Below, piece by piece: positions 19,171 through 55,456 of a DNA stretch of 64,000 nucleotides (its first letter is position 1; each line of letters starts with the position of its first letter). Below the pieces are notes generated by a model. The model made no database searches and was not told the DNA's origin. It worked only from the letters and a program-made list of their open reading frames with translations. A program made the position numbers and the translations under genes. The stretch is from Methylocella sp. (GTDB lineage: Bacteria > Pseudomonadota > Alphaproteobacteria > Rhizobiales > Beijerinckiaceae), in NCBI GenBank assembly GCA_037200525.1, contig JBBCGG010000001.1, positions 1 to 64,000 on the forward strand, given 5' to 3'.

Positions 19171-20036
19171 GGCCGTGGTGACGAATTCGGCGTTTGGGGG
19201 ATTCTCGCGAGGATCTTTCCATGATTCAAGGCTGATTTTTGGAGATCAGCCTTGATGATTCGGGATGTCGATGCGCTGCGAGACGATCAATGGGAGCGGC
19301 TTTGTGATCTTGTGCCAGGCGGAAGAGCCGGCCAGCGCGGGCCGCGCTGCGACAATCGACGCTTCGTCGACGCGCTGTTATGGATGGCCCGCTCGGGCGG
19401 CCGCTGGCGCGATCTGCCCGAACGCTTCGGCGACCATCAGGCGGTGAAACGCCGCTACTATCGCTGGATCGAGCGCGGCGCCTTGGACGGATTTCTTGAG
19501 GCATTCACCGCCGAGGCCGATCTCGAATGGCTGATGATCGACTCAACAATCGTGCGCGCCCATCAGCACGCGGCCGGCGCAAGGATCGCCAAAGGGGGGC
19601 GGATGCCCAAGGCCTGGGCCGCTCTCGCGGTGGTTTGAGCACCAAAATCCACGCCGCGACAGACGCGCTCGGCAACCCCGTTCGGCTCCTTCTCGGACCT
19701 GGGCAACGCAACGACATCACAAAAGCGCACGCCCTGATCGAAGGCTTTGCGGCCGATGCGATCATCGCCGATAAAGGTTATGACGCCAATCACTTGCGCA
19801 AGGCTGTTCTTATGCGTGAGGCTGAGCCGGTGATCCCATCAAAATCCAATCGCCGCGCGCCGCTCCCCTACGACAAGGCGCTCTACAAGGAGCGCAATCT
19901 CGTCGAGCGTTTCTTCAATAAACTGAAGCAGTTCCGGCGCGTCGCAACCCGATACGACAAGCTCCTCGCAAACTACCGAGGCTTCGTATTGCTCGCCGCT
20001 ATTGCTATCATGCTCAGGTAATTCGTCACTACTGCC
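19171..20036 (+). mobile_element. IS element B copy 1 (IS5 family), complete
   Basis: 866 bp, left end GGCCGTGGTGACGAATT and right end GGTAATTCGTCACTACTGCC, which are imperfect inverted repeats. TA on both sides inside a CTAG target. Two further complete copies lie at 27062 and 54591 and a 3' fragment at 11368. Confidence 0.93.
19255..20021 (+). CDS. IS5-family transposase of element B (-1 shift)
   Basis: Transposase in two frames. The first, from the ATG at 19255 with GGAG upstream, gives VDALRDDQWERL, LLWMARSGGRWRDLPERFG and MIDSTIVRAHQHAAGA, holding the first Asp. The second gives GRSRGGLSTKIHAATDA, ADKGYDANHLRKA (second Asp) and ERNLVERFFNKLKQFRRVATRYD (Glu). The sequence AAAGGGGGGCG at 19591 is the likely -1 slip site; the fused protein would read KGGADAQGLGRSRGG. 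Length about 255 residues, normal for this group. Confidence 0.88.
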
Positions 20037-25376: not shown

Positions 25377-27061
25377 TTACCAATATATTACCGCTGTTTC
25401 CTCCGCCGGTCCCGGGTAGACGACACGCAGTCGCAGTATGTAACTACGCTCAGCGAAGAGCTTGGACGTAATAGTTGCCGAACGCGGTTCTCCGCTATCG
25501 TCGTCGCCCGAAATGTAGCGCGGTACGCCGTTGACCTCTTCGAACAATACGAGCAGGGCGTCTGTCGCTCCCTTCGTTTCAAATGTGTATTGCCGCGACT
25601 CGGGCGGCTTGATTGCAAAATCCGCCTGTTCGCCGGCGGCGAGCTTTACGACTATAGAACGCAATGGCTCTAAAGGCGGGGGCATCACAGCTTCCATCGG
25701 CGGATACCACTTGAGCACCCATTCCCCATCGGCGGCCGACAAGGTTCCCGGCGGTGTCAGTCCGTTGGCGTATTGCTTCGGTTCCACGATCAATCCGGGC
25801 GCAAATTCATATTCCATGATCGAATCCGGATCCCACCGCGACCCCTGAACGGAGCCCGCGTCTAATTTCTTTAGTATATTTATGTACGTCTTTTGGCGAT
25901 CCCAGTTGTTCGGCGGCCCCCCTAGTGATGTATATACCGCCTCATCATTCCATGTTATGCCAGCAAAAGGACTTTGATGTTCGTGTTCCATCCCAAGGAC
26001 GTGGCCAAGCTCGTGTAACGCGGTGCCGCTTCCATAACGGGTGTTTAGATCCCAACCATAATACGTGGTCGGTTCACTCAACGGTACGTTCAACACATCC
26101 CGTCCGACTGCCGACTGTGAAATTCCTTCCGTGTAACCTATCCTTATCTCGGCTTCACTGAGTTGCGTAACTTCCCTAAAGTTCAGGCCGATTCCGACCG
26201 ACTTCCATTTGGCGAAAGCCTGACGAGCCGCGTTCGCCTGATCGGCAGCGATGGCGTATTGTCCATCCGTGAAAAAACAGTAATGCAGAACCGTACCGTT
26301 CACCCATTTGGATTGGGTTTCAAGGATCTCAGAGGCTCGAGTTGGATTAGCCGTCACGGCCGGACTAAGAAGGCGTACTTTTTGCGGTCCGCTGCTGCAC
26401 AAATGTCTTTGAGTTTTGATCCCCTGTATAACCGGCAAGGCGACAGGCACGGGCTGGGGCGCTGTTTGCGGGCCTGCCACAGACTGAGGAACGACTGCGG
26501 GCGCGGTGGCAAGCTCGACGACGTCGCGGATGTGGGAGTCGATCGACGCCGTCCTGTCGACGCCATCCCACGTTCCTTCCGCATGCCGGGGGGAGCCGCT
26601 CCCGGTTATGACGACGTCGACGAAGCCCACCTGCTTGAACCGATCCGCGACCTGATCGTTGCTCGCGAATCGCTCCAGGCCGCTCAGAACGATGGTGGCC
26701 GCGTATCGATGGCCGTGTTGGACCGTGAAGCTCGGCGCGGCCGCAAGCGCCGCCGCGATGCCAGCGGCCCGCGCGGGGAGGGCGACTTGGCCGGCTTGGG
26801 CGAAAACGTAAACCGACATCTTCGCTTGCCAGCTTGCGCCGTCCCATACCCTAGAATCCGGGCCGACGCCGCCGTGCGACTCGAGCGTCTTTCCGCCGCT
26901 GATGAGGACGACGTGTCCGATGCCCTGCGGCGAATCCTGCGGCCGAAGGAAGGCGATCCGTATGATCCCGTCGTCGTTTTTTGCGTCGGCGACCGTCGAC
27001 CCTTCGAACCCGTGTCCACTGACCCAATCGTGTTGCACGACGGAACCGTCAGGGAAAACTA
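25377..27061 (-). pseudogene. Multidomain secreted-type enzyme, C-terminal part (NlpC/P60 end, astacin-like protease, PPC)
   Basis: Last segment of a gene that reads as one 979-residue protein when the IS copies at 27062 and 28800 are removed. It begins VFPDGSVVQHDWVSGHGFEG and continues with GIGHVVLISGG, the His region of an NlpC/P60-like cysteine peptidase. Then come a linker domain and a zinc peptidase with HELGHVLGMEHEH (HExxHxxGxxH, about residue 768) and a Met-turn DSIMEYEF, as in astacins. The end (about 885-979: ADFAIKPPESRQYTFETKG, then ISGDDDSGEP) is a pre-peptidase C-terminal (PPC) domain. No signal peptide is seen in this part. By itself this segment has no ribosome site; its apparent start codons lie in IS DNA. 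Confidence 0.72.
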
Positions 27062-27927
27062 GGCCGTGGTGACGAATTCGGCGTTTGGGGGATTCTCGCG
27101 AGGATCTTTCCATGATTCAAGGCTGATTTTTGGAGATCAGCCTTGATGATTCGGGATGTCGATGCGCTGCGAGACGATCAATGGGAGCGGCTTTGTGATC
27201 TTGTGCCAGGCGGAAGAGCCGGCCAGCGCGGGCCGCGCTGCGACAATCGACGCTTCGTCGACGCGCTGTTATGGATGGCCCGCTCGGGCGGCCGCTGGCG
27301 CGATCTGCCCGAACGCTTCGGCGACCATCAGGCGGTGAAACGCCGCTACTATCGCTGGATCGAGCGCGGCGCCTTGGACGGATTTCTTGAGGCATTCACC
27401 GCCGAGGCCGATCTCGAATGGCTGATGATCGACTCAACAATCGTGCGCGCCCATCAGCACGCGGCCGGCGCAAGGATCGCCAAAGGGGGGCGGATGCCCA
27501 AGGCCTGGGCCGCTCTCGCGGTGGTTTGAGCACCAAAATCCACGCCGCGACAGACGCACTCGGCAACCCCGTTCGGCTCCTTCTCGGACCTGGGCAGCGC
27601 AACGACATCACAAAAGCGCACGCCCTGATCGAAGGCTTTGCGGCCGATGCGATCATCGCCGATAAAGGTTATGACGCCAATCACTTGCGCAAGGCTGTTC
27701 TTATGCGTGAGGCTGAGCCGGTGATCCCATCAAAATCCAATCGCCGCGCGCCGCTCCCCTACGACAAGGCGCTCTACAAGGAGCGCAATCTCGTCGAGCG
27801 TTTCTTCAATAAACTGAAGCAGTTCCGGCGCGTCGCAACCCGATACGACAAGCTCCTCGCAAACTACCGAGGCTTCGTATTGCTCGCCGCTATTGCTATC
27901 ATGCTCAGGTAATTCGTCACTACTGCC
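27062..27927 (+). mobile_element. IS element B copy 2 (IS5 family), complete
   Basis: 866 bp, TA on both sides in a CTAG site. It is inserted in codon 419-420 of the multidomain enzyme gene, opposite to its direction of transcription. Almost identical to the copies at 19171 and 54591. Confidence 0.93.
27146..27912 (+). CDS. IS5-family transposase of element B, copy 2 (-1 shift)
   Basis: Two frames, ATG at 27146 and stop at 27912, with the slip near 27482. Same protein as 19255-20021; a few silent differences in the second half. Confidence 0.88.
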
Positions 27928-28799
27928 TAGCGTCGGCGCAGTGGCCAGACGAACAGCCTCGCGCACGAACCCGCTGCAGTCGACTTGCGTGAAGTCCCGT
28001 CCGGGAACGGCGTCCAGGCGAGGCACCTTCTTGCCGAGCCCGTAGCCCACGCGCGGGATCGAGGTCTCGCACGCCTGCAGGAATGCGTGGACTCGCACCA
28101 GATTGAACGATGCGCTCGTGCTCGCCGCCTGCGGCGCAGCGGAGGCAAGCGTCGGATCGCTCTCCGCAGGAGCCCCGAGATTGGCGAGCACGCGCCCCCA
28201 TTCGAAGCCCGCCGTGTCGCTGACCTCGGACGGGGCAGCAGGCGCGGCAGGGTCGTCATCGACCGACGGGCCTGCGGACGTGGCCACTGCGGGCGCGGCA
28301 TGGCGCGCGCTATCGGGCGCACCGTCGACCGGCGTCCCGTTCGCCATGATCGGCACGAAGGACAGATCCCAGTTATTGCGATTGATCTCGCGCATCAGGT
28401 CCTTCGTCCGGTAGACCGTCGCGTGGAGAGACTCCCTAGGATTTGTCGCCAGCCAGTTCTGGCGGGCTGCGACATACTGAGCGATCCATCTCCTCTCGTC
28501 ACCGCCGGCGGCGGGCGTTCTTTCCAGAATTTCGTCCCGGATCGTAGACAGGATCCCCCCGCTATGATTGAAAGAATCGTATATAACGAGCGCGGATAAA
28601 GCCTTGACGAATCCGTTCGCGCCCGCCCATTTAAGCGCAGGCTGAAAGTACACTCGGTCGAAAAATGCATCCTGCGTTTGTCTCATCACCGGATCGTCGC
28701 CAGCGTTTCGGAGCAGGGTCAAGAAGGCCTGGTCATCGACGAGCGGACTGCGCGGAGGATTTCCGACCTTTCTGCCAATTGTCCCCACGTAGTACGCTA
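27928..28799 (-). pseudogene. Multidomain secreted-type enzyme, middle part (GH46-like C-half and NlpC/P60 start)
   Basis: Middle segment of the split gene. The first part, AGDDPVMRQTQDAFFDRVYFQPA, then VIYDSFNHSG, YVAARQNWLA and TVYRTKDLMREINRNNWDL, matches the second half of GH46 chitosanase-like domains. An Ala/Pro-rich linker of about 70 residues follows. Then FLQACETSIPRVGYGLGKK and VDCSGFVREAVRLA give the start of an NlpC/P60-like domain, with the nucleophile Cys in DCSGF near residue 400. Removing the flanking IS copies, each with one TA, joins this part in frame with both neighbours. Confidence 0.72.
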
Positions 28800-29632
28800 G
28801 GCTCAGGACCTATTAAATTTGCCTGAGATGTGATTCCTGGTCTCCGCATGGGGAGGCTGGGATGAGTGATTTGTTTTTGTTGGGCGAGCGGCAGATGGCG
28901 CGGCTTGCGCCGCATTTTCCTCTGTCGCATGGCGTTCCGCGGGTTGACGACCGTCGGGTGGTCAGCGGAATCGTCTATGTGATCCGCAACGGCCTGCAAT
29001 GGAAAGATGCGCCCAAGGATTACGGGCCGCACAAGACGCTTTACAATCGCTTCATCCGCTGGAGCCGGCTCGGCGTCTTCGACCGCATATTCGCCGCGCT
29101 CGCTGGCGAAGGTCCAAAGCCCGAGCGCATCATGATCGACGCCACGCATCTGAAGGCGCATCGCACAGCGGCGAGCCTGCTCAAAAAGGGGCTCTTCCCC
29201 GCCGTATCGGGCGCACGAAAGGCGGACTGAACTCGAAGCTCCACGTCGTTTGCGACGGCGCCGGCAAGCCCCTCGTCATGTTGCTCTCGGAGGGCCAGAT
29301 GAGCGACCACAAGGGCGCGCGGCTGATGCTCAAGGCTTTACCGCCCGCTTCAATGTTGATCGCCGACAGGGGCTACGACAGCAACTGGTTCCGCGCCGCG
29401 CTGAAGGCCAGGGGCGTCGAGCCCTGCATCCCGCCAACCAGAAGCCGCAAGCTTCCCATTGCCTATGACAAGACGCTCTACCGCCAGCGTCACAAAATCG
29501 AGAACATGTTCGCCAAGCTCAAGGACTGGCGGCGCATCGCAACCCGCTATGATCGATGCGCCCACACCTTCTTCTCCGCCATCTGCATCGCAGCCGCCGT
29601 CCTCTTCTATCTCAATCAATGAGTCCTGAGCC
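28800..29632 (+). mobile_element. IS element C copy 1 (IS5 family), complete
   Basis: 833 bp with inverted ends GGCTCAGGACCTATT and GATTGAGTCCTGAGCC-type tips (left GGCTCAGGACC, right GGACTCAGG reading in complement). TA on both sides in CTAG. It splits the GH46-like region of the multidomain enzyme gene. Other copies at 34173 and 39381 are virtually identical. Confidence 0.92.
28862..29622 (+). CDS. IS5-family transposase of element C (-1 shift)
   Basis: Two-frame DDE transposase. The first frame, from the ATG at 28862 with GGGGAGG upstream, gives MSDLFLLGERQMARLAPHF, VDDRRVVSGIVYV and IMIDATHLKAHRTA (first Asp). The second gives GRTKGGLNSKLHVVCDG, ADRGYDSNWFR (second Asp) and RQRHKIENMFAKLKDWRRIATRYD (Glu). 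The run CTCAAAAAGGGG near 29180 is the likely -1 slip site, giving a protein of about 253 residues. Confidence 0.88.
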
Positions 29633-30019
29633 TAGCTGAGCTGAAAAGCGACCATTCGCGGCGACGTAGTCGCTGATCAGCTGAAGGAGGTTCCCATACT
29701 CGGTCGTTTGCGCGCGGCCGTAAGTCACTTGTCGGATGTCATCCGGTCCGTCACGGAAGATGCTGATCGCGCCATAGTTGCCTCCCACGGTTCCGGTCTC
29801 GTATACGTTAATGACGCGAATGCAGATGCGACTCTGTGCGTCTGTTAGGGCAAGCCCACCAGCGGGAGCCGCCGCGAAGGCGAAACCGGCGGCCTGCGGC
29901 GCGCGCGCCGAGGAAACCGGCCACGACAATTCCTTCGCCGAGGTCTCGCACTCGGCGAGCGCCTCCAACAAGGCCAGTATCTCCCGCCGAACGATTGCAG
30001 GACTGATGCGAGCGAACAT
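29633..30019 (-). pseudogene. Multidomain secreted-type enzyme, N-terminal part (GH46-like start)
   Basis: Start of the split 979-residue gene. The ATG at 30019 has GGAGGAAGAT just before it. Residues 1-55 form a helical and Ala-rich leader without a classical signal peptide. Then LTDAQSRICIRVINVYETG, NYGAISIFRDGPDD and TYGRAQTTEYGNLLQLI match the N-half of GH46 chitosanase-like domains, with the candidate catalytic Glu in YETG. IS element C interrupts after FSAQL at residue 129. The gene follows the subtilisin-like gene by 23 bp. Confidence 0.72.
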
Positions 30020-30042
30020 ATCTTCCTCCTGACCATATGCGT

Positions 30043-31206
30043 TTATACGGAAGGGGTGATGGCGGGGATCGGGGCGGCGAGGTCCGGCCGGTTGCCAATG
30101 CGCTGCCCAATCCCGCCGGCAAGGCTAGTTGTTTGCGGGCTGCCGCTCGCGCGGAGAAGATTCCGCACCTTGACGGGGGCGGCGCCCTTGAACGAATTCG
30201 CCCATGTCTCCGGGAAGGAAGGGTCGGGCGTGTCGTGGAGAAAATCGTCGAGATCCTGCGCGCCGTTCCCCGCAGCTTCGACGACGATCACGCCGCGAAG
30301 CACCGCGCGTCGGACGGCCAGAAAGTCATCGGGCCACCATTCGACCGCGATGTAACCCTGCTGGTCATCGCGTGACTGGAGGCCGAAACGCGGCCCTGGC
30401 CGATGCATTTCGAGCAGCGTGATGTCGCCGGCCTGAAGCGAACAGGACGCGAGATCGATCGCGCCGGCCGATCCGAGGCCCTGATGCGAGATGGCGTTGA
30501 ACGAAGCTTCTGGCGCGATTCCCATTACGCCGAAGCTATTATCTGCGGCACGAAGGACGCCTAGCGCCGCCGTCCCGTGATTTGTCCAGTCTGCATCGGT
30601 AAACGGCTGTCCGCCGATCAGGCAGCCGGTGCCGCGCAGTTCGACGTGGTCCACGGTCCATCCCCCTTCGATGTCGATAAATCGAACATTGTCTCCCTTG
30701 CCGTCAGGGAGAGTCCAGGCGAAATTTCGCGCGCCGATGCCTGCGGGGGCCGCGTCGAGGTAGCCCTGCTGCACCGAGTAGTCTGGAACGACTGCGGGCG
30801 CAGTCGGCTTGGCGCATGGCGGCGCCAGCGGGCATCCGACCGCCGGCTTCACATATACGTTGCTTACGCCGGGCGCTGACGTGAGCTGTTCGACAATCTG
30901 CTGCGCCTGAGCGTCTGTCTCGACGTGAGCCACGTAGTATCGACGCTGTTCACGCTCAATGGCGGCCAACTCGGGGTTCTGCGCCGCCGGAGCGGTTGCG
31001 GCGGCGATCATCGGCGCGTGAACCGATGCGTCAGGAAAAAGCGGTTTGACAGCGAATCCCAACGCCTGCACGGCGCTAATCACGTCGTAAGCAGCAACGG
31101 ATGGAGGCGACGGAGCGGCGGCTTGAACGGCGGCGTCCGCTGCGGGCGGCGTTGTGACGATGACGACATCACGACGGGCGGGCTTTTTTCTGGGAGCGAG
31201 TGACAT
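30043..31206 (-). CDS. Subtilisin-like (S8) protein lacking the catalytic Ser segment
   Basis: 387 residues, ATG with GAGGCG upstream. After a Pro/Ala-rich and helical N-terminal region (1-145) the S8 core shows the catalytic Asp in RFIDIEGGW, the His in WTNHGTAALG and the oxyanion Asn in VVEAAGNGAQD. The chain TLLEMHRPGPRFG and GYIAVEWWPDDF fits a bacterial S8 subfamily. The usual GTSxA block with the nucleophilic Ser is absent: after PETWANSFKGAAP the sequence jumps to NLLRASGSPQ and QRIGNRPDL, which in relatives lie after the Ser. So it looks like an in-frame deletion of roughly 90 residues. No classical signal peptide. Part of the 35350-to-25377 operon. Confidence 0.75.
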   Translation of the reverse strand: MSLAPRKKPARRDVVIVTTPPAADAAVQAAAPSPPSVAAYDVISAVQALGFAVKPLFPDASVHAPMIAAATAPAAQNPELAAIEREQRRYYVAHVETDAQAQQIVEQLTSAPGVSNVYVKPAVGCPLAPPCAKPTAPAVVPDYSVQQGYLDAAPAGIGARNFAWTLPDGKGDNVRFIDIEGGWTVDHVELRGTGCLIGGQPFTDADWTNHGTAALGVLRAADNSFGVMGIAPEASFNAISHQGLGSAGAIDLASCSLQAGDITLLEMHRPGPRFGLQSRDDQQGYIAVEWWPDDFLAVRRAVLRGVIVVEAAGNGAQDLDDFLHDTPDPSFPETWANSFKGAAPVKVRNLLRASGSPQTTSLAGGIGQRIGNRPDLAAPIPAITPSV

Positions 31207-31393
31207 AGCGACGCCTCACTTATCTGTTTAAATGCCGAGGTTGGCGACTGCGAAATCATGCCTGAAACATCCGCAAGAAAAAGCCGAGGGAGGGAGAGAG
31301 ACGCCGCCTCGCCCCGGGGCCAGAGGCACTGACCTTCGCGACGTTTAAGAGCGCGCAGCCCCCAAACAGCGCGCTGGCGCCGTTTATCGCCGC

Positions 31394-31516
31394 TCAATCT
31401 TCAACGTCCTCCCTTTGGCCGAACTTCGAAACGAGCTGGCCCAGAAGCTTGCCTGCGGCGTCTTTGGTGTTCTCGAACGAACCCGCTCCGTTTCCTCCTT
31501 CCGATCCGACAACCAT
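31394..31516 (-). CDS. Possible 40-residue peptide
   Basis: ATG at 31516, with GAGGAAG about 11 bases upstream inside the end of the previous gene, five bases after its stop. The product MVVGSEGGNGAGSFENTKDA then GKLLGQLVSKFGQREDVED is a Gly-rich head plus an amphipathic helix. It resembles no family I know. The position inside the operon and the ribosome site support it; its length does not allow certainty. Confidence 0.4.
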   Translation of the reverse strand: MVVGSEGGNGAGSFENTKDAAGKLLGQLVSKFGQREDVED

Positions 31517-31521
31517 CGGGT

Positions 31522-31989
31522 CTACTTCCTCGTGGTGGGAACCGTGACGCCCAAGGCAGACGCAGCCGTCGAGATTGTTGTCGACTGCGTGAGCTGCTGC
31601 GCGCCGATCGGCAGGCCGACACCCCAAAAAAAGCAGAGCAGAAAATCGGCGGCCAGCCCGAACCCCGTATTCGCCAGAACGACAACGTAAGCGCCGAGGG
31701 CGGTGGCCGGCACGGCGAATAAGGCCCAGGCCAGAAGGCTCGTATTCGCGATCTCGACTGTCAGCCGCTGGTACGCAAGAGCGGGCGCGGCGTGACCCGC
31801 CTGGGGAGCCCCCGGCGCCGCCATTTGCGCGCTGAGGGCGGGCGGCGGAAAACCGCCGACTATGTGCATGATGTCGGCCAGCGGGTCGGGCTGGGGCGGC
31901 GCGTCTCGAGTAGAGAACGCGTCGAGGGCGTCCGAGCTTTGTCGTGCGGCGGCAAGAAGCGGATCGGCCGGCGCGGGCGGAATTTTCAC
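31522..31989 (-). CDS. Unknown membrane protein with two transmembrane helices
   Basis: 155 residues beginning with GTG directly after the TAG stop of the preceding gene (no gap), which implies translational coupling. A Pro/Ala-rich soluble N-terminal half is followed by two hydrophobic helices (LLAWALFAVPATALGAYVVVLA and FGLAADFLLCFFWGVGLPIGA) and a Thr-rich tail. Family unknown. It probably partners the larger membrane-anchored protein encoded just before it. Confidence 0.65.
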   Translation of the reverse strand: MKIPPAPADPLLAAARQSSDALDAFSTRDAPPQPDPLADIMHIVGGFPPPALSAQMAAPGAPQAGHAAPALAYQRLTVEIANTSLLAWALFAVPATALGAYVVVLANTGFGLAADFLLCFFWGVGLPIGAQQLTQSTTISTAASALGVTVPTTRK

Positions 31990-33180
31990 CTATAGCTTCT
32001 CAAAGCCCTGCGTGACTAGGAGGTCGAGCCAAGCCAGCTTCTGGGTCTGCCGCGCAAGATAGGCTTTGTAGGCCTCCGGATCGGGCGTCCAGGCAAGGAA
32101 GGGATTGGGAATCCTTCCTGGCAGCAAATTGGCCGTCTGCAACGCGATGTCCGAAAGGTTTGTCGCCAGAGTGTTTAGCGCGGCGGTTGTTTGCGATGTC
32201 TGCTGGGCCAGCATCGCAGGGCAGGATCTTAATCGATTCTGCGTCTCGTCGACCTGCTCCATCAATGCGGCTGCCGGACGTAGCAGCTGAGCGCGGTTGA
32301 GCCGGGTCTGAAGGTAGCCGTTGACGGTCCACGCGAAAAGGACGCCAAGCAGAATCGCCCCGGCACCGAGCCACTGGCACCACGCGGAGGTTCCCGAGAC
32401 GGACATAGTCGCCGTTTCCCCATCCCGCTTCTGTGCGGCACCGATGACGACCGTTCCTGAGTACTTGCCGATCACCTCCGCTCCGCCCTTCGGTCGCAGC
32501 CAAAGCCGCTTCTGCGAGTTCGCGGGGATCGGGAACGCGTGGTCTTTGCAGTCGGGTAAAGAGTCGCAAAGCTCCCAGCCTCCGCCGACAAGGGTCTTTG
32601 TCGTCTGTTCGATGAAAATCGCCTGGCTCAGCCCAACGTCTGTCGCCGGGACAGGGCCCACCGAGACGCCGATTTCAATTGCTTGACCGGGCCGAAGGCT
32701 TATTTCCGCTGTCGGTGCCTTGACGGACCACGCGAACTCCTGCGTCGGCCGGTTCGTCAGGGTATAAGGCAGGGTCACGGGTTGATGCCCCAACATGAAT
32801 GAAACAAAGCGCTTCTGCGTCACCACATCTGTCAGACCTTTGGCCGTGGCGGCCAGGAGCCAGTGCCGCGTGTCGCCGTCCGAAGGAAGTTCGGTCGCGG
32901 AAAACGTCACGCTAAGAGGCGGCGGGTTCGGTATGCCGAGATCCTTGGGTTCCGCGAGCGTCGCGTCGCCTGCTCCCGAAACATCGAGCACCATAAACGC
33001 TTGACCCTCTAACGCTCCGGGATCGAGCGCAATTCGAAGATCCGACGCGCCGACCCTCGGGTCGGCGGCGCGGCAGGCGGCAACGGATAAAGACAGCGAA
33101 ACGAACGCGACGGCCACAACGACAAACGACCGTCCACAGCTGACGGAAAATCGGCGAATAAACTGGTGAGTTCCAGTCAC
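31990..33180 (-). CDS. Unknown exported, membrane-anchored protein
   Basis: 396 residues. A signal peptide (SFVVVAVAFVSLSLSVAACRA) is followed by about 230 residues of beta-rich sequence (FMVLDVSGAGDATLAEP, TLPYTLTNRPTQEFAW, ISLRPGQAIEIGVSVG) resembling Ig-like folds. A transmembrane helix (LGAGAILLGVLFAWTVNGYL, about 272-291) precedes a helical tail with many Gln and Asn that could form a coiled coil. Two Cys pairs (CDSLPDC) may form a disulfide. No known family recognised. It starts 6 bp after the upstream gene's stop. Confidence 0.68.
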   Translation of the reverse strand: MTGTHQFIRRFSVSCGRSFVVVAVAFVSLSLSVAACRAADPRVGASDLRIALDPGALEGQAFMVLDVSGAGDATLAEPKDLGIPNPPPLSVTFSATELPSDGDTRHWLLAATAKGLTDVVTQKRFVSFMLGHQPVTLPYTLTNRPTQEFAWSVKAPTAEISLRPGQAIEIGVSVGPVPATDVGLSQAIFIEQTTKTLVGGGWELCDSLPDCKDHAFPIPANSQKRLWLRPKGGAEVIGKYSGTVVIGAAQKRDGETATMSVSGTSAWCQWLGAGAILLGVLFAWTVNGYLQTRLNRAQLLRPAAALMEQVDETQNRLRSCPAMLAQQTSQTTAALNTLATNLSDIALQTANLLPGRIPNPFLAWTPDPEAYKAYLARQTQKLAWLDLLVTQGFEKL

Positions 33181-33186
33181 ATCATC

Positions 33187-34172
33187 CTACTTCAGCGCGT
33201 CGATCGCCTTTTTTATCGCTGTGAGATTGCTGCCAGATGTCGCGTTCGCAATGGCCCCCGCGAAAGTAATCAATTGGGTGACCGACGCCCAAATATCCTC
33301 AGCGCTGCTGCTCCACTGAACTACCTCGTCGTAATGATTGAATATCTTCATATAGTTGGCGAGCGCCGTGTTCGTATCGCCGGCGTCAGCTAACTGATCG
33401 TAAGCGCTCGCCGTCTTGAGGGCGTCTTCAACCAACTTACTGTACTGAGACCATACTGTACTGTAGCAGATGATGAAGGCGTCATTCGGCGCGCCGCTAT
33501 CGGACCTTTTGGCCAAAATCGCCGTATCAACTTGACATGCATCGATCTTTGCGAGGTCAACATGCATTGCTTTGACGCTGGCAATTTGCTCGGCGAACTG
33601 GCCGGCCAGGGAAAGACGCTGCGAAAAAAGATAGTCAGACGTCATGCGTCCTAACGCTTCCCCCTTAGCTCGCAGCGCCTCCTTATTTTGATCGAGAAAT
33701 TCCTTTACCGCCTGCTTTTGCTTGGCCTGAGCCGCGATGTTGGAAAAATCAATGAACACTGGTCCGATAATGCCGACAATGGCGTCGAACGCAGTTCCAT
33801 ACGGTCCCAGAAACGACAATGACGGCAACCCCAGTCCAGCTGCCGCCGGGGCTGCCTCTGCGACCCCCGCGTGCTGGAAGTTTATAGCTTCGCCGTAGTA
33901 CGCCCTGTCGGATTCCGATAGGTCTGCTTCGCAGACTTTTCTTACGTTATCTCGAGTCTTGCTGTCGTCTTTGGACGACAAGCTGTCGCCGACTTTAACC
34001 TGGTATACATCGAATAGTTGCTTGAATGCCTGCGGAATGTCAGTAGATTTCGGGGGTGTCAGCGATTTCAACTCAGAAAGGACCGAAGTCAGGTAATTTT
34101 GAGCAGTTAAGGTGGCAAGATGGTCAACAACAACCGCCGCCTTTGCGTCCGTGTCCGAGAGGCTGGACACTA
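33187..34172 (-). pseudogene. Unknown exported helical protein, C-terminal part
   Basis: Second part of a gene that gives 442 residues when IS element C copy 2 is removed. It reads SSLSDTDAKAAVVVDHLATL, then mostly long helices, with a hydrophobic stretch (GLPSLSFLGPYGTAFDAIVG then IIGPVFIDFSNIAA) followed by charged helices (QAVKEFLDQNKEALRAKGEA). The arrangement of long helices around one hydrophobic hairpin recalls helical pore-forming proteins, but this is only a resemblance in layout. Four Cys occur. The GTG at 34170 would be a poor start; the natural start is at 35350. Confidence 0.6.
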
Positions 34173-35005
34173 GGCTCAGGACCTATTAAATTTGCCTGAG
34201 ATGTGATTCCTGGTCTCCGCATGGGGAGGCTGGGATGAGTGATTTGTTTTTGTTGGGCGAGCGGCAGATGGCGCGGCTTGCGCCGCATTTTCCTCTGTCG
34301 CATGGCGTTCCGCGGGTTGACGACCGTCGGGTGGTCAGCGGAATCGTCTATGTGATCCGCAACGGCCTGCAATGGAAAGATGCGCCCAAGGATTACGGGC
34401 CGCACAAGACGCTTTACAATCGCTTCATCCGCTGGAGCCGGCTCGGCGTCTTCGACCGCATATTCGCCGCGCTCGCTGGCGAAGGTCCAAAGCCCGAGCG
34501 CATCATGATCGACGCCACGCATCTGAAGGCGCATCGCACAGCGGCGAGCCTGCTCAAAAAGGGGCTCTTCCCCGCCGTATCGGGCGCACGAAAGGCGGAC
34601 TGAACTCGAAGCTCCACGTCGTTTGCGACGGCGCCGGCAAGCCCCTCGTCATGTTGCTCTCGGAGGGCCAGATGAGCGACCACAAGGGCGCGCGGCTGAT
34701 GCTCAAGGCTTTACCGCCCGCTTCAATGTTGATCGCCGACAGGGGCTACGACAGCAACTGGTTCCGCGCCGCGCTGAAGGCCAGGGGCGTCGAGCCCTGC
34801 ATCCCGCCAACCAGAAGCCGCAAGCTTCCCATTGCCTATGACAAGACGCTCTACCGCCAGCGTCACAAAATCGAGAACATGTTCGCCAAGCTCAAGGACT
34901 GGCGGCGCATCGCAACCCGCTATGATCGATGCGCCCACACCTTCTTCTCCGCCATCTGCATCGCAGCCGCCGTCCTCTTCTATCTCAATCAATGAGTCCT
35001 GAGCC
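34173..35005 (+). mobile_element. IS element C copy 2 (IS5 family), complete
   Basis: 833 bp, TA duplicated within CTAG. Inserted in the unknown exported protein gene in the opposite direction to it. Same sequence as the copy at 28800. Confidence 0.92.
34235..34995 (+). CDS. IS5-family transposase of element C, copy 2 (-1 shift)
   Basis: Same two-frame transposase as 28862-29622, with the slip near 34556. Both frames intact. Confidence 0.88.
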
Positions 35006-35350
35006 TAGCGTTGTCTTTTCCCATCGGAAATTACAAAGCAGGTATTTGCCATTGATTTTGCTCGCCGAGGTCAAATAACCATTCACTGGGTCTGTCGTAG
35101 CGGCGGGGGCGGCCGCCGATGGCGGACCAACATCCTTCACAAGCTTGCTCGTCAGTGCTTGTCTAATCGTAAGGAGCCGACCCGCGTTCCTCTCATTTTG
35201 AATAACAGTGTTAGAGGATGCTGTCATCGTGGCAAGAACAGCAAGAAACGCTTGATACGCATTGTCGCTTCCATCAGCTTGTGCGCCGTGAAGCATGCCA
35301 AGTAGAGAAACAGCAGAAATCGCGATAACCCCAGGGAGACGACTAATCAT
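35006..35350 (-). pseudogene. Unknown exported helical protein, N-terminal part
   Basis: First 114 residues of the gene completed at 33187. ATG at 35350. A signal peptide (MISRLPGVIAISAVSLLGML then HGAQA) precedes helical sequence AYQAFLAVLATMTASSNT and LTSKLVKDVGPPSAAAPAAT. It ends at KYLLCNFRWEKTTL where IS element C enters; joining gives TTLVSSLSDTDAKA in frame. First gene of the operon, so its promoter should lie in 35351-35620. Confidence 0.62.
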
Positions 35351-39361: not shown

Positions 39362-39380
39362 CGATAGCTCACCAAGGCTA

Positions 39381-40213
39381 GGCTCAGGACTCATTGATTG
39401 AGATAGAAGAGGACGGCGGCTGCGATGCAGATGGCGGAGAAGAAGGTGTGGGCGCATCGATCATAGCGGGTTGCGATGCGCCGCCAGTCCTTGAGCTTGG
39501 CGAACATGTTCTCGATTTTGTGACGCTGGCGGTAGAGCGTCTTGTCATAGGCAATGGGAAGCTTGCGGCTTCTGGTTGGCGGGATGCAGGGCTCGACGCC
39601 CCTGGCCTTCAGCGCGGCGCGGAACCAGTTGCTGTCGTAGCCCCTGTCGGCGATCAACATTGAAGCGGGCGGTAAAGCCTTGAGCATCAGCCGCGCGCCC
39701 TTGTGGTCGCTCATCTGGCCCTCCGAGAGCAACATGACGAGGGGCTTGCCGGCGCCGTCGCAAACGACGTGGAGCTTCGAGTTCAGTCCGCCTTTCGTGC
39801 GCCCGATACGGCGGGGAAGAGCCCCTTTTTGAGCAGGCTCGCCGCTGTGCGATGCGCCTTCAGATGCGTGGCGTCGATCATGATGCGCTCGGGCTTTGGA
39901 CCTTCGCCAGCGAGCGCGGCGAATATGCGGTCGAAGACGCCGAGCCGGCTCCAGCGGATGAAGCGATTGTAAAGCGTCTTGTGCGGCCCGTAATCCTTGG
40001 GCGCATCTTTCCATTGCAGGCCGTTGCGGATCACATAGACGATTCCGCTGACCACCCGACGGTCGTCAACCCGCGGAACGCCATGCGACAGAGGAAAATG
40101 CGGCGCAAGCCGCGCCATCTGCCGCTCGCCCAACAAAAACAAATCACTCATCCCAGCCTCCCCATGCGGAGACCAGGAATCACATCTCAGGCAAATTTAA
40201 TAGGTCCTGAGCC
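39381..40213 (-). mobile_element. IS element C copy 3 (IS5 family), complete
   Basis: 833 bp in the minus orientation, TA on both sides in CTAG. Situated in the leader of the MFS gene and transcribed in the same direction as that gene, so read-through from the transposase promoter could reach it. Confidence 0.92.
39391..40151 (-). CDS. IS5-family transposase of element C, copy 3 (-1 shift)
   Basis: Identical in both frames to the transposases at 28862 and 34235, starting from the ATG at 40151. The two frames overlap near 39820. Confidence 0.88.
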
Positions 40214-40501
40214 TAGAGGGATGCGCCGCGAGTCGGATGCTGCGCTCAGTTTGCTGCGCTGACTCATCATCTGAATGCGGCGGAGATCGCCGCGGCGAAA
40301 AGTTGGAAGAGCATCGGCATTTAGGGCGCATCTGAACTTCGTTCGGAAGGCGAAATTCTTGCACCCGTCCTGATCATCGCGGAGACGCCAGCTCATTGCG
40401 TCGAACCATTGAGCGCTTCAATGCTCCTTGATCCGCGCCGATCTTCAATGGCCGCTGGAATGGCCAGGAGCAGCTTGCCTGCGAAATCGACGATGGACTA
40501 G

Positions 40502-54590: not shown

Positions 54591-55456
54591 GGCAGTAGTG
54601 ACGAATTACCTGAGCATGATAGCAATAGCGGCGAGCAATACGAAGCCTCGGTAGTTTGCGAGGAGCTTGTCGTATCGGGTTGCGACGCGCCGGAACTGCT
54701 TCAGTTTATTGAAGAAACGCTCGACGAGATTGCGCTCCTTGTAGAGCGCCTTGTCGTAGGGGAGCGGCGCGCGGCGATTGGATTTTGATGGGATCACCGG
54801 CTCAGCCTCACGCATAAGAACAGCCTTGCGCAAGTGATTGGCGTCATAACCTTTATCGGCGATGATCGCATCGGCCGCAAAGCCTTCGATCAGGGCGTGC
54901 GCTTTTGTGATGTCGTTGCGCTGCCCAGGTCCGAGAAGGAGCCGAACGGGGTTGCCGAGCGCGTCTGTCGCGGCGTGGATTTTGGTGCTCAAACCACCGC
55001 GAGAGCGGCCCAGGCCTTGGGCATCCGCCCCCCTTTGGCGATCCTTGCGCCGGCCGCGTGCTGATGGGCGCGCACGATTGTTGAGTCGATCATCAGCCAT
55101 TCGAGATCGGCCTCGGCGGTGAATGCCTCAAGAAATCCGTCCAAGGCGCCGCGCTCGATCCAGCGATAGTAGCGGCGTTTCACCGCCTGATGGTCGCCGA
55201 AGCGTTCGGGCAGATCGCGCCAGCGGCCGCCCGAGCGGGCCATCCATAACAGCGCGTCGACGAAGCGTCGATTGTCGCAGCGCGGCACGCGCTGGCCGGC
55301 TCTTCCGCCTGGCACAAGATCACAAAGCCGCTCCCATTGATCGTCTCGCAGCGCATCGACATCCCGAATCATCAAGGCTGATCTCCAAAAATCAGCCTTG
55401 AATCATGGAAAGATCCTCGCGAGAATCCCCCAAACGCCGAATTCGTCACCACGGCC
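54591..55456 (-). mobile_element. IS element B copy 3 (IS5 family), complete
   Basis: 866 bp in the minus orientation, TA on both sides in CTAG, between arfB and the DUF2852 gene. It is the only IS found in the core block on the right of the window and disrupts no gene. Confidence 0.93.
54606..55372 (-). CDS. IS5-family transposase of element B, copy 3 (-1 shift)
   Basis: Two-frame transposase, ATG at 55372 and stop at 54606, slip near 55035. One base change gives GQRVPRCDNRR in place of GQRGPRCDNRR; otherwise as 19255-20021. Confidence 0.88.

Follow-up and report, generated by a model that had tools for sequence, protein, structure and literature searches.

A decayed locus of a rare membrane protein and multi-hydrolase genes in Methylocella sp. 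and its likeness to conflict and lysis systems

Closest described systems

Among described bacterial conflict systems, System 3 couples multiple peptidases to a NucA-like nuclease, and its description names lysozyme- and papain-like peptidoglycan effectors (Kaur et al. 2020, PMC7159879). The locus considered here is located on the minus strand at 25377–35350 of the window, i.e., the analyzed stretch of 64,000 nucleotides at the start of contig JBBCGG010000001.1 of Methylocella sp. (GCA_037200525.1; genome in a single 5.24-Mb contig), and comprises genes for an exported helical protein, a membrane protein, an S8 (subtilase) protein and a multidomain hydrolase. System 3, likewise mostly alphaproteobacterial, shares with it an S8 peptidase, a papain-like peptidase acting on peptidoglycan and effectors of lysozyme-like type; in the window, peptidoglycan attack is represented in kind by a GH46 domain and an NlpC/P60-like domain with Cys/His/His. 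Unlike System 3, the window encodes an uncharacterized membrane protein and the exported helical protein. The most likely reading, put forward tentatively, is that the locus is a remnant of an envelope-triggered module for self-directed killing (conflict) or for self-lysis, because the membrane protein recurs beside genes for S8, caspase or wall amidase, the enzymes are leaderless by hydropathy, and a relative of the NlpC module (genome G117) stands in a conflict-system-like setting.

Phage holin-endolysin pairs, in which a leaderless wall hydrolase is combined with small membrane proteins, would act alike. The NlpC relative of G117 yields a weak hit to an endolysin model of PHROG (E 0.0013). 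The window differs from such pairs in having a protease and in the large exported region of its membrane protein. Compared with GH46 chitosanases, the GH46 domain of the window shows no N-terminal signal and is fused to NlpC and zinc-peptidase modules; its substrate may be wall glycan or chitosan. The zinc module in turn differs from AbsR1 (apparently identical to SCO6992) and from myroilysin in being fused behind GH46 and NlpC, and it scores below the AbsR1 cut-off. Nothing of this kind appears in the passages checked of PMC8195603 and PMC12419801. The leaderless multi-hydrolase chains look new, extending the peptidoglycan-attack theme of the published conflict-system class.

The membrane protein family and its neighbourhoods

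The main part of the membrane protein (31990–33180, minus strand) comprises a signal, a beta-rich region, a transmembrane (TM) segment and a helical region (beta-rich and helical regions recognized by eye) and ends with an in-frame TAG, 3' of which a C-terminal part with a hydrophobic hairpin follows (31522–31989, minus strand). The preliminary description had regarded the latter as a separate two-helix membrane protein gene coupled by a zero gap. This two-gene reading is rejected: the protein is a single open reading frame (ORF) in all three relatives, i.e., in G100 (574 aa), G653 (560 aa) and a Candidatus Eremiobacterota bacterium (451 aa), and profile searches align across the stop (‘1 TAG’). 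All signal and TM calls were made by hydropathy only. Hydrophobic stretches mark the N-terminus of the membrane proteins, and a TM segment is located centrally; the proteins of the window, of G653 and of the Eremiobacterota bacterium are hydrophobic at the C-terminus as well, that of G100 remaining below threshold there.

In overlapping genome samples, with the own genome included in the counts, the membrane protein was detected in 2/199 order genomes (single-protein query), 1/398 phylum genomes (short C-terminal profile), 2/289 class genomes, 2/249 order genomes, 1/18 genomes of the order of G653 and 1/119 relatives. A pattern-limited scan of genome contigs yielded one membrane protein locus from 55 candidate stretches, and plasmid searches with the membrane and helical proteins gave none. 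Co-occurrence of the six genes in the same order, envisaged as a check in the preliminary description, was not observed: no second locus of this kind was seen, and 0/14 congeners carried the membrane protein or the GH46-NlpC piece. The membrane protein profile had no PDB match; PADLOC gave no match (window part and G653), NCBIfam none with any member and PHROG none with the window part, while the only Pfam matches were sub-threshold, namely FlgK_D1 (0.0035, window part) and Cas5fv_helical (0.0082, Eremiobacterota protein). The family looks new and is rare, its genes repeatedly adjoining those for proteases or a wall enzyme; the earlier notion of an unknown membrane protein is supported.

The G653 neighbourhood (L054) is composed of a divergent regulator with TPR (BTAD-like as judged by eye), PAP2, S8 (2.2e-13), an ORF of 128 aa, a helical exported protein directly 5' of the membrane protein, a caspase (Pfam 1.7e-23) directly 3' of it and tRNA-Ser(GGA); a PADLOC scan named the caspase alone. 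In G100 (L053), tRNA-Ser(GGA) is followed by a gene that looks integrase-like by eye, then by S8 (1.2e-52) and the membrane protein. The latter starts at the S8 end; next come an exported protein that matches OmpA weakly (0.0017) and an ORF of more than 2200 codons (L053, 12035 onward) with a weak, mucin-like match as its sole Pfam hit. In the Eremiobacterota bacterium (L006), an Amidase_2 gene (2.9e-8) follows the membrane protein; the contig starts 38 bases before the latter, rendering the upstream region invisible.

An S8 gene is thus located within a few genes and on the same strand in 3/4 membrane protein loci, the window included. Since the S8 types are divergent (29 % identity over 207 residues between G100 and the window, that of G653 aligning to no other at 1e-3), the pairing of S8 and membrane protein is not simply inherited. 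Assuming at most 10 S8 genes among 5000, an S8 gene would be expected within five genes on either side at roughly 2 % per locus; its presence at three of three informative loci is therefore unlikely by chance, but the window is among them, so that this is an aid rather than a test. The tRNA-Ser(GGA) gene adjoining the membrane protein module in G100 (L053, 4779–4868) and G653 (L054, 11586–11676) is likely to represent an island site.

The helical protein, preceding the membrane protein in the operon, consists of an N-terminal piece of 113 aa with a hydrophobic N-terminus (35012–35350, minus strand), cut by an insertion sequence (IS), and a C-terminal piece of 327 aa with one hydrophobic stretch (33187–34170, minus strand). 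The former has no match in Pfam (E 0.1) or NCBIfam, and the latter none in PDB, Pfam, NCBIfam, PADLOC or PHROG. In the class sample, 2/260 genomes were matched, i.e., the own genome and, weakly, G716 (5.6e-4); the G716 match was judged noise, the genes in its neighbourhood looking ordinary by eye.

The hydrolase genes and their decay

Six minus-strand genes with tiny gaps had been recognized previously. The genes are real, but as they stand they form nine coding pieces, with three ISs among them; the intergenic gaps along the operon are 6, 0, 9, 177 and 23 nt, the 177-nt gap preceding the S8 gene and hence not being tiny. Each coding piece was searched separately and pieces were never joined for analysis. 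The possible peptide of 40 residues corresponds to a 42-codon ORF (31384–31512, minus strand) without Pfam or NCBIfam family, the coding function of which is doubtful.

The multidomain gene is interrupted twice by ISs and the helical gene once. Piece 1 (29630–30019, minus strand) contains the start of GH46 and has no Pfam GH46 match by itself, but is matched by a relative. Piece 2 (27940–28788, minus strand) holds the remaining GH46 part (Pfam 8.6e-15, 55.4 bits versus a cut-off of 27) and the N-terminal half of the NlpC/P60-like domain (VDCSGF). The C-terminal half of the latter (GHV, ESHGG), the zinc-peptidase module (HELGHVLGMEH, SIMEY) and a C-terminal region are encoded in piece 3 (25377–27053, minus strand), the ORF of which runs from 27113 to 25377 with its first 20 codons (27054–27113) at the IS edge. 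This ORF matches Pfam Matrixin (M10; 6.2e-9, 36.4 bits, above its cut-off), while the Astacin score (21.9) is just below the cut-off of 22.5. Its residues 237–578 match NCBIfam AbsR1 (NF050131; 1.8e-122), the model extending to the C-terminus, with 408.8 bits and thus under the equivalog cut-off of 650; in a PDB sequence search, myroilysin (M12) matches the AbsR1-like stretch at 2.1e-22. The metzincin-type HExxHxxGxxH motif (HELGHVLGMEH) and the Met-turn (SIMEY) are both kept.

Cys and His serve as active-site residues in NlpC/P60 enzymes, and the Cys/His/His set (VDCSGF, GHV, ESHGG) is conserved between the pieces of the window and three relatives. All three relatives match PF00877 alone at E up to 10 (at best E 0.013, the first with 15.9 bits versus a cut-off of 23), and the NlpC query had no PDB match; judging from motifs and profiles, the NlpC/P60 assignment appears right but weak and the domain divergent. 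The earlier domain calls hence stand for GH46, NlpC/P60-like and zinc peptidase; PPC, without Pfam match at E 0.1, was not confirmed, although the AbsR1 model covers the C-terminal end. Likewise, no EAD1 match was obtained with Pfam in the operon pieces, no EAD1-specific profile having been applied.

Because relatives run across both cut points, the multidomain gene can soundly be taken to have encoded one protein in the ancestor. A Microvirga GH46 protein spans the first cut (residues 40–172 of its stop-to-stop frame corresponding to piece 1 and 182–346 to piece 2), and the NlpC domain is continuous over the second cut in Rhizobium sp. TH2, G117 and Methylobacterium indicum. The single chain of 979 residues claimed before thus holds for the ancestor, but not for the present copy with its three pieces.

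The S8 gene (30043–31206, minus strand; Pfam match sub-threshold) agrees with the S8-like protein noted before, except that the catalytic Ser motif (GTSxAxP) is missing: compared with a Mycetohabitans S8 protein (48 % identity over 332 residues), an internal deletion has removed about 100 residues including GTSSASP, whereas the HGT motif at residue 210 is present. The 840-bp IS within the helical gene (34170–35009) is identical to that between pieces 1 and 2 (28797–29636) and to a copy at 39377–40216, which matches plasmid genes annotated as IS5 family transposase (~80 % identity). A second IS type (IS5-like by eye) at about 27118–27914 separates pieces 2 and 3 and has near-identical copies at 19227–20023 and 54604–55400. 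Because of three ISs, one stop and one S8 deletion, a working operon is not supported; as judged from its sequence, the operon is genuine but dead or dying in this genome, and the locus may represent, with some reservation, what remains of a rare, decaying accessory module that was probably gained horizontally. The GC content at third codon positions (GC3) is 0.62 in the second helical piece and 0.64 in the last multidomain piece versus 0.75–0.77 in three comparison genes taken from elsewhere in the window, which hints weakly at a foreign origin; that of the other operon pieces (0.70–0.76) is near these values. At its left end (1–2839), the IS-rich window carries one gene for a serine recombinase and another for a tyrosine integrase.

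The GH46-NlpC piece was matched in 2/60 related genomes: apart from the own genome, this was G117, where the similarity is confined to the NlpC part. This NlpC relative (the sole one found in the family) is encoded divergently from a trypsin+Endonuclease_NS gene, to which are added genes for a protein with weak lysozyme-like match (0.0015), for another trypsin, one further gene and that for a STAND-like ATPase; the locus resembles System 3. Nine plasmid records matched the GH46-NlpC piece (six in GH46, three in NlpC), of which 5/6 and 3/3, respectively, were opened. The five GH46 records, from rhizobial and Microvirga plasmids (L015, L019, L064, L065, L066), share a cassette with DUF3616 annotated downstream (5/5), accompanied by L,D-transpeptidase (4/5), annotated caspase (2/5) and C25 peptidase (2/5); the two caspase proteins carry a GDSL-like stretch below the Pfam cut-off, and no literature description of a GH46 + DUF3616 cassette was found. 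The Microvirga GH46 relative matches PDB 6lwu (5.6e-14) and no phage record. In R. ruizarguesonis TA1, the caspase-GH46 cluster is preceded at a distance of ~2 kb by genes for a SIR2-family protein and an AAA ATPase, which occupy L065, 1–3375.

In Rhizobium sp. TH2, the NlpC-like stretch lies within one chain of 1651 aa (GDSL-Amidase_3-NlpC-M74-S8; Pfam around the NlpC-like stretch) without visible N-terminal signal; on its plasmid pTH2a (L017), genes for a BTAD regulator, YcaO and TfuA are located upstream of this polyenzyme and a CHAT gene downstream. In M. indicum, NlpC is followed by a part resembling the lysozyme-like protein of G117 (by eye). Multi-hydrolase chains directed at wall and protein, as proposed previously, are supported by these domains and relatives. 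On pMNOD01 of Methylobacterium nodulans (L016, 8959–10650), NlpC-like halves are found on opposite strands in an inversion-like arrangement, the C-terminal half being joined to an S8 gene. On pART37 of Paenibacillus sp. 37 (L022), two S8 proteins, a trypsin-like protease and an M12-like protein are clustered, with annotated immunity proteins nearby.

A class-wide sample gave GH46 matches in 13/385 genomes, i.e., 12 without the own genome; one neighbourhood was fetched from each of these 12 (a second G862 match being excluded) and the gene lists were read for 7. In 5/7, the GH46 protein has a probable C-terminal peptidoglycan-binding part, and 4 are located beside cytochrome c biogenesis genes (both by eye); G770 has a similar GH46 protein with in-frame stops and G328 one with a C-terminal TM segment. 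As other GH46 protein types, the matches in the 7 neighbourhoods read were rejected as system members. In L040, L042, L043 and L045 of other alphaproteobacteria, the GH46 proteins beside cytochrome c biogenesis genes have no obvious signal and again a probable C-terminal peptidoglycan-binding part (by eye).

Functional interpretation

The enzymes had been called ‘secreted-type’ hydrolases, a label that is not supported: no N-terminal signal was recognized by hydropathy in the S8 protein and the first multidomain piece of the window, and the proteins of the S8, caspase, NlpC and amidase types as well as that of TH2 likewise show no signal-like stretch at the N-terminus. The enzymes are therefore probably cytosolic, and the receptor-like part of the membrane protein probably faces outward. 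In case of a self-directed killing or self-lysis module, the exported helical protein and the membrane protein (beta-rich region outside, helices inside, C-terminal membrane hairpin) may sense envelope damage or attack, and would then release or activate cytosolic proteases, i.e., S8 here and S8 plus caspase in G653. The same sensors would unleash the leaderless polyenzyme, which, by cutting glycan (GH46) and peptides (NlpC/P60) and by means of its zinc peptidase, could destroy wall and proteins of its own cell in the manner of an endolysin. The sensing and gating roles, the self-directed action and the sequence of steps are inferred.

Several observations weigh against this interpretation. 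Four membrane protein loci were found in all, one of which, the window, prompted the question; the membrane protein is present in none of the fetched plasmid loci; and the helical proteins of window and G653 share no detectable similarity. Unlike in System 3, no trypsin-like peptidase, NucA-type endonuclease or NTPase/STAND domain was found by Pfam searches restricted to the nine pieces of the operon. Ala-rich hydrophobic stretches occur near residues 42–60 of the Microvirga GH46 protein and, weaker, in the window S8 protein and GH46 piece 1; from hydropathy alone, they were read as non-signals. Moreover, the zinc-peptidase module resembles AbsR1/SCO6992, which is reported to be a beta-glucuronidase lacking protease activity (PMC9705864).

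Alternatively, the genes could form an offensive module, in which a leaderless polyenzyme is injected into rival cells while membrane and helical proteins aid loading or immunity. Many injected cargoes lack N-terminal signals, as do the present enzymes by hydropathy, and the wall- and protein-cutting domains would suit the killing of rivals. Mobile antagonism islands are often located beside tRNA or integrase genes, which agrees with tRNA-Ser adjoining the G653 and G100 modules and the integrase-like gene (by eye) of the latter. However, no gene for an injection machine or immunity was noticed when the genes listed for the four loci (window, G100, G653, G117) were read, no systematic search having been made, and the company of caspase and STAND-like proteins points to self-directed killing instead, rendering this alternative unlikely. 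Remodelling of envelope or matrix, with ordinary hydrolases for housekeeping or the scavenging of nutrients accompanied by a membrane regulator, is still less probable. It would conform to the often digestive nature of GH46 and M12 enzymes and to the location of another GH46 protein type beside cytochrome c biogenesis genes in 4/7 other alphaproteobacterial neighbourhoods, but hardly to the lack of N-terminal signals (hydropathy), the rarity, the caspase and S8 neighbours and the absence from all 14 congeners (0/14).

One may also ask whether there is a system at all, since unrelated accessory genes may have accumulated where ISs abound and may now be disappearing. The heavy IS load, the stop, the deletion and the lack of a second six-gene locus would be expected in this case, whereas protease or wall-enzyme neighbours at all four membrane protein loci, with divergent S8 types, speak against it; a mere accumulation is accordingly considered improbable, about as much as injection into rivals.

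Returning to the remnant of an envelope-triggered killing or self-lysis module, a more far-reaching version is conceivable, though doubtful: an undescribed suicide-lysis system, in which a new receptor family with holin-like hairpin and its helical partner would license S8/caspase proteases and endolysin-like polyenzymes upon envelope attack, such that one signal cuts glycan, wall peptides and proteins together. If true, bacterial caspase and subtilase death proteases would be tied to wall lysis via a membrane protein family without above-cut-off match in the searched libraries, and the question of how leaderless, non-phage wall hydrolases reach the wall would become directly testable in the unbroken relatives.

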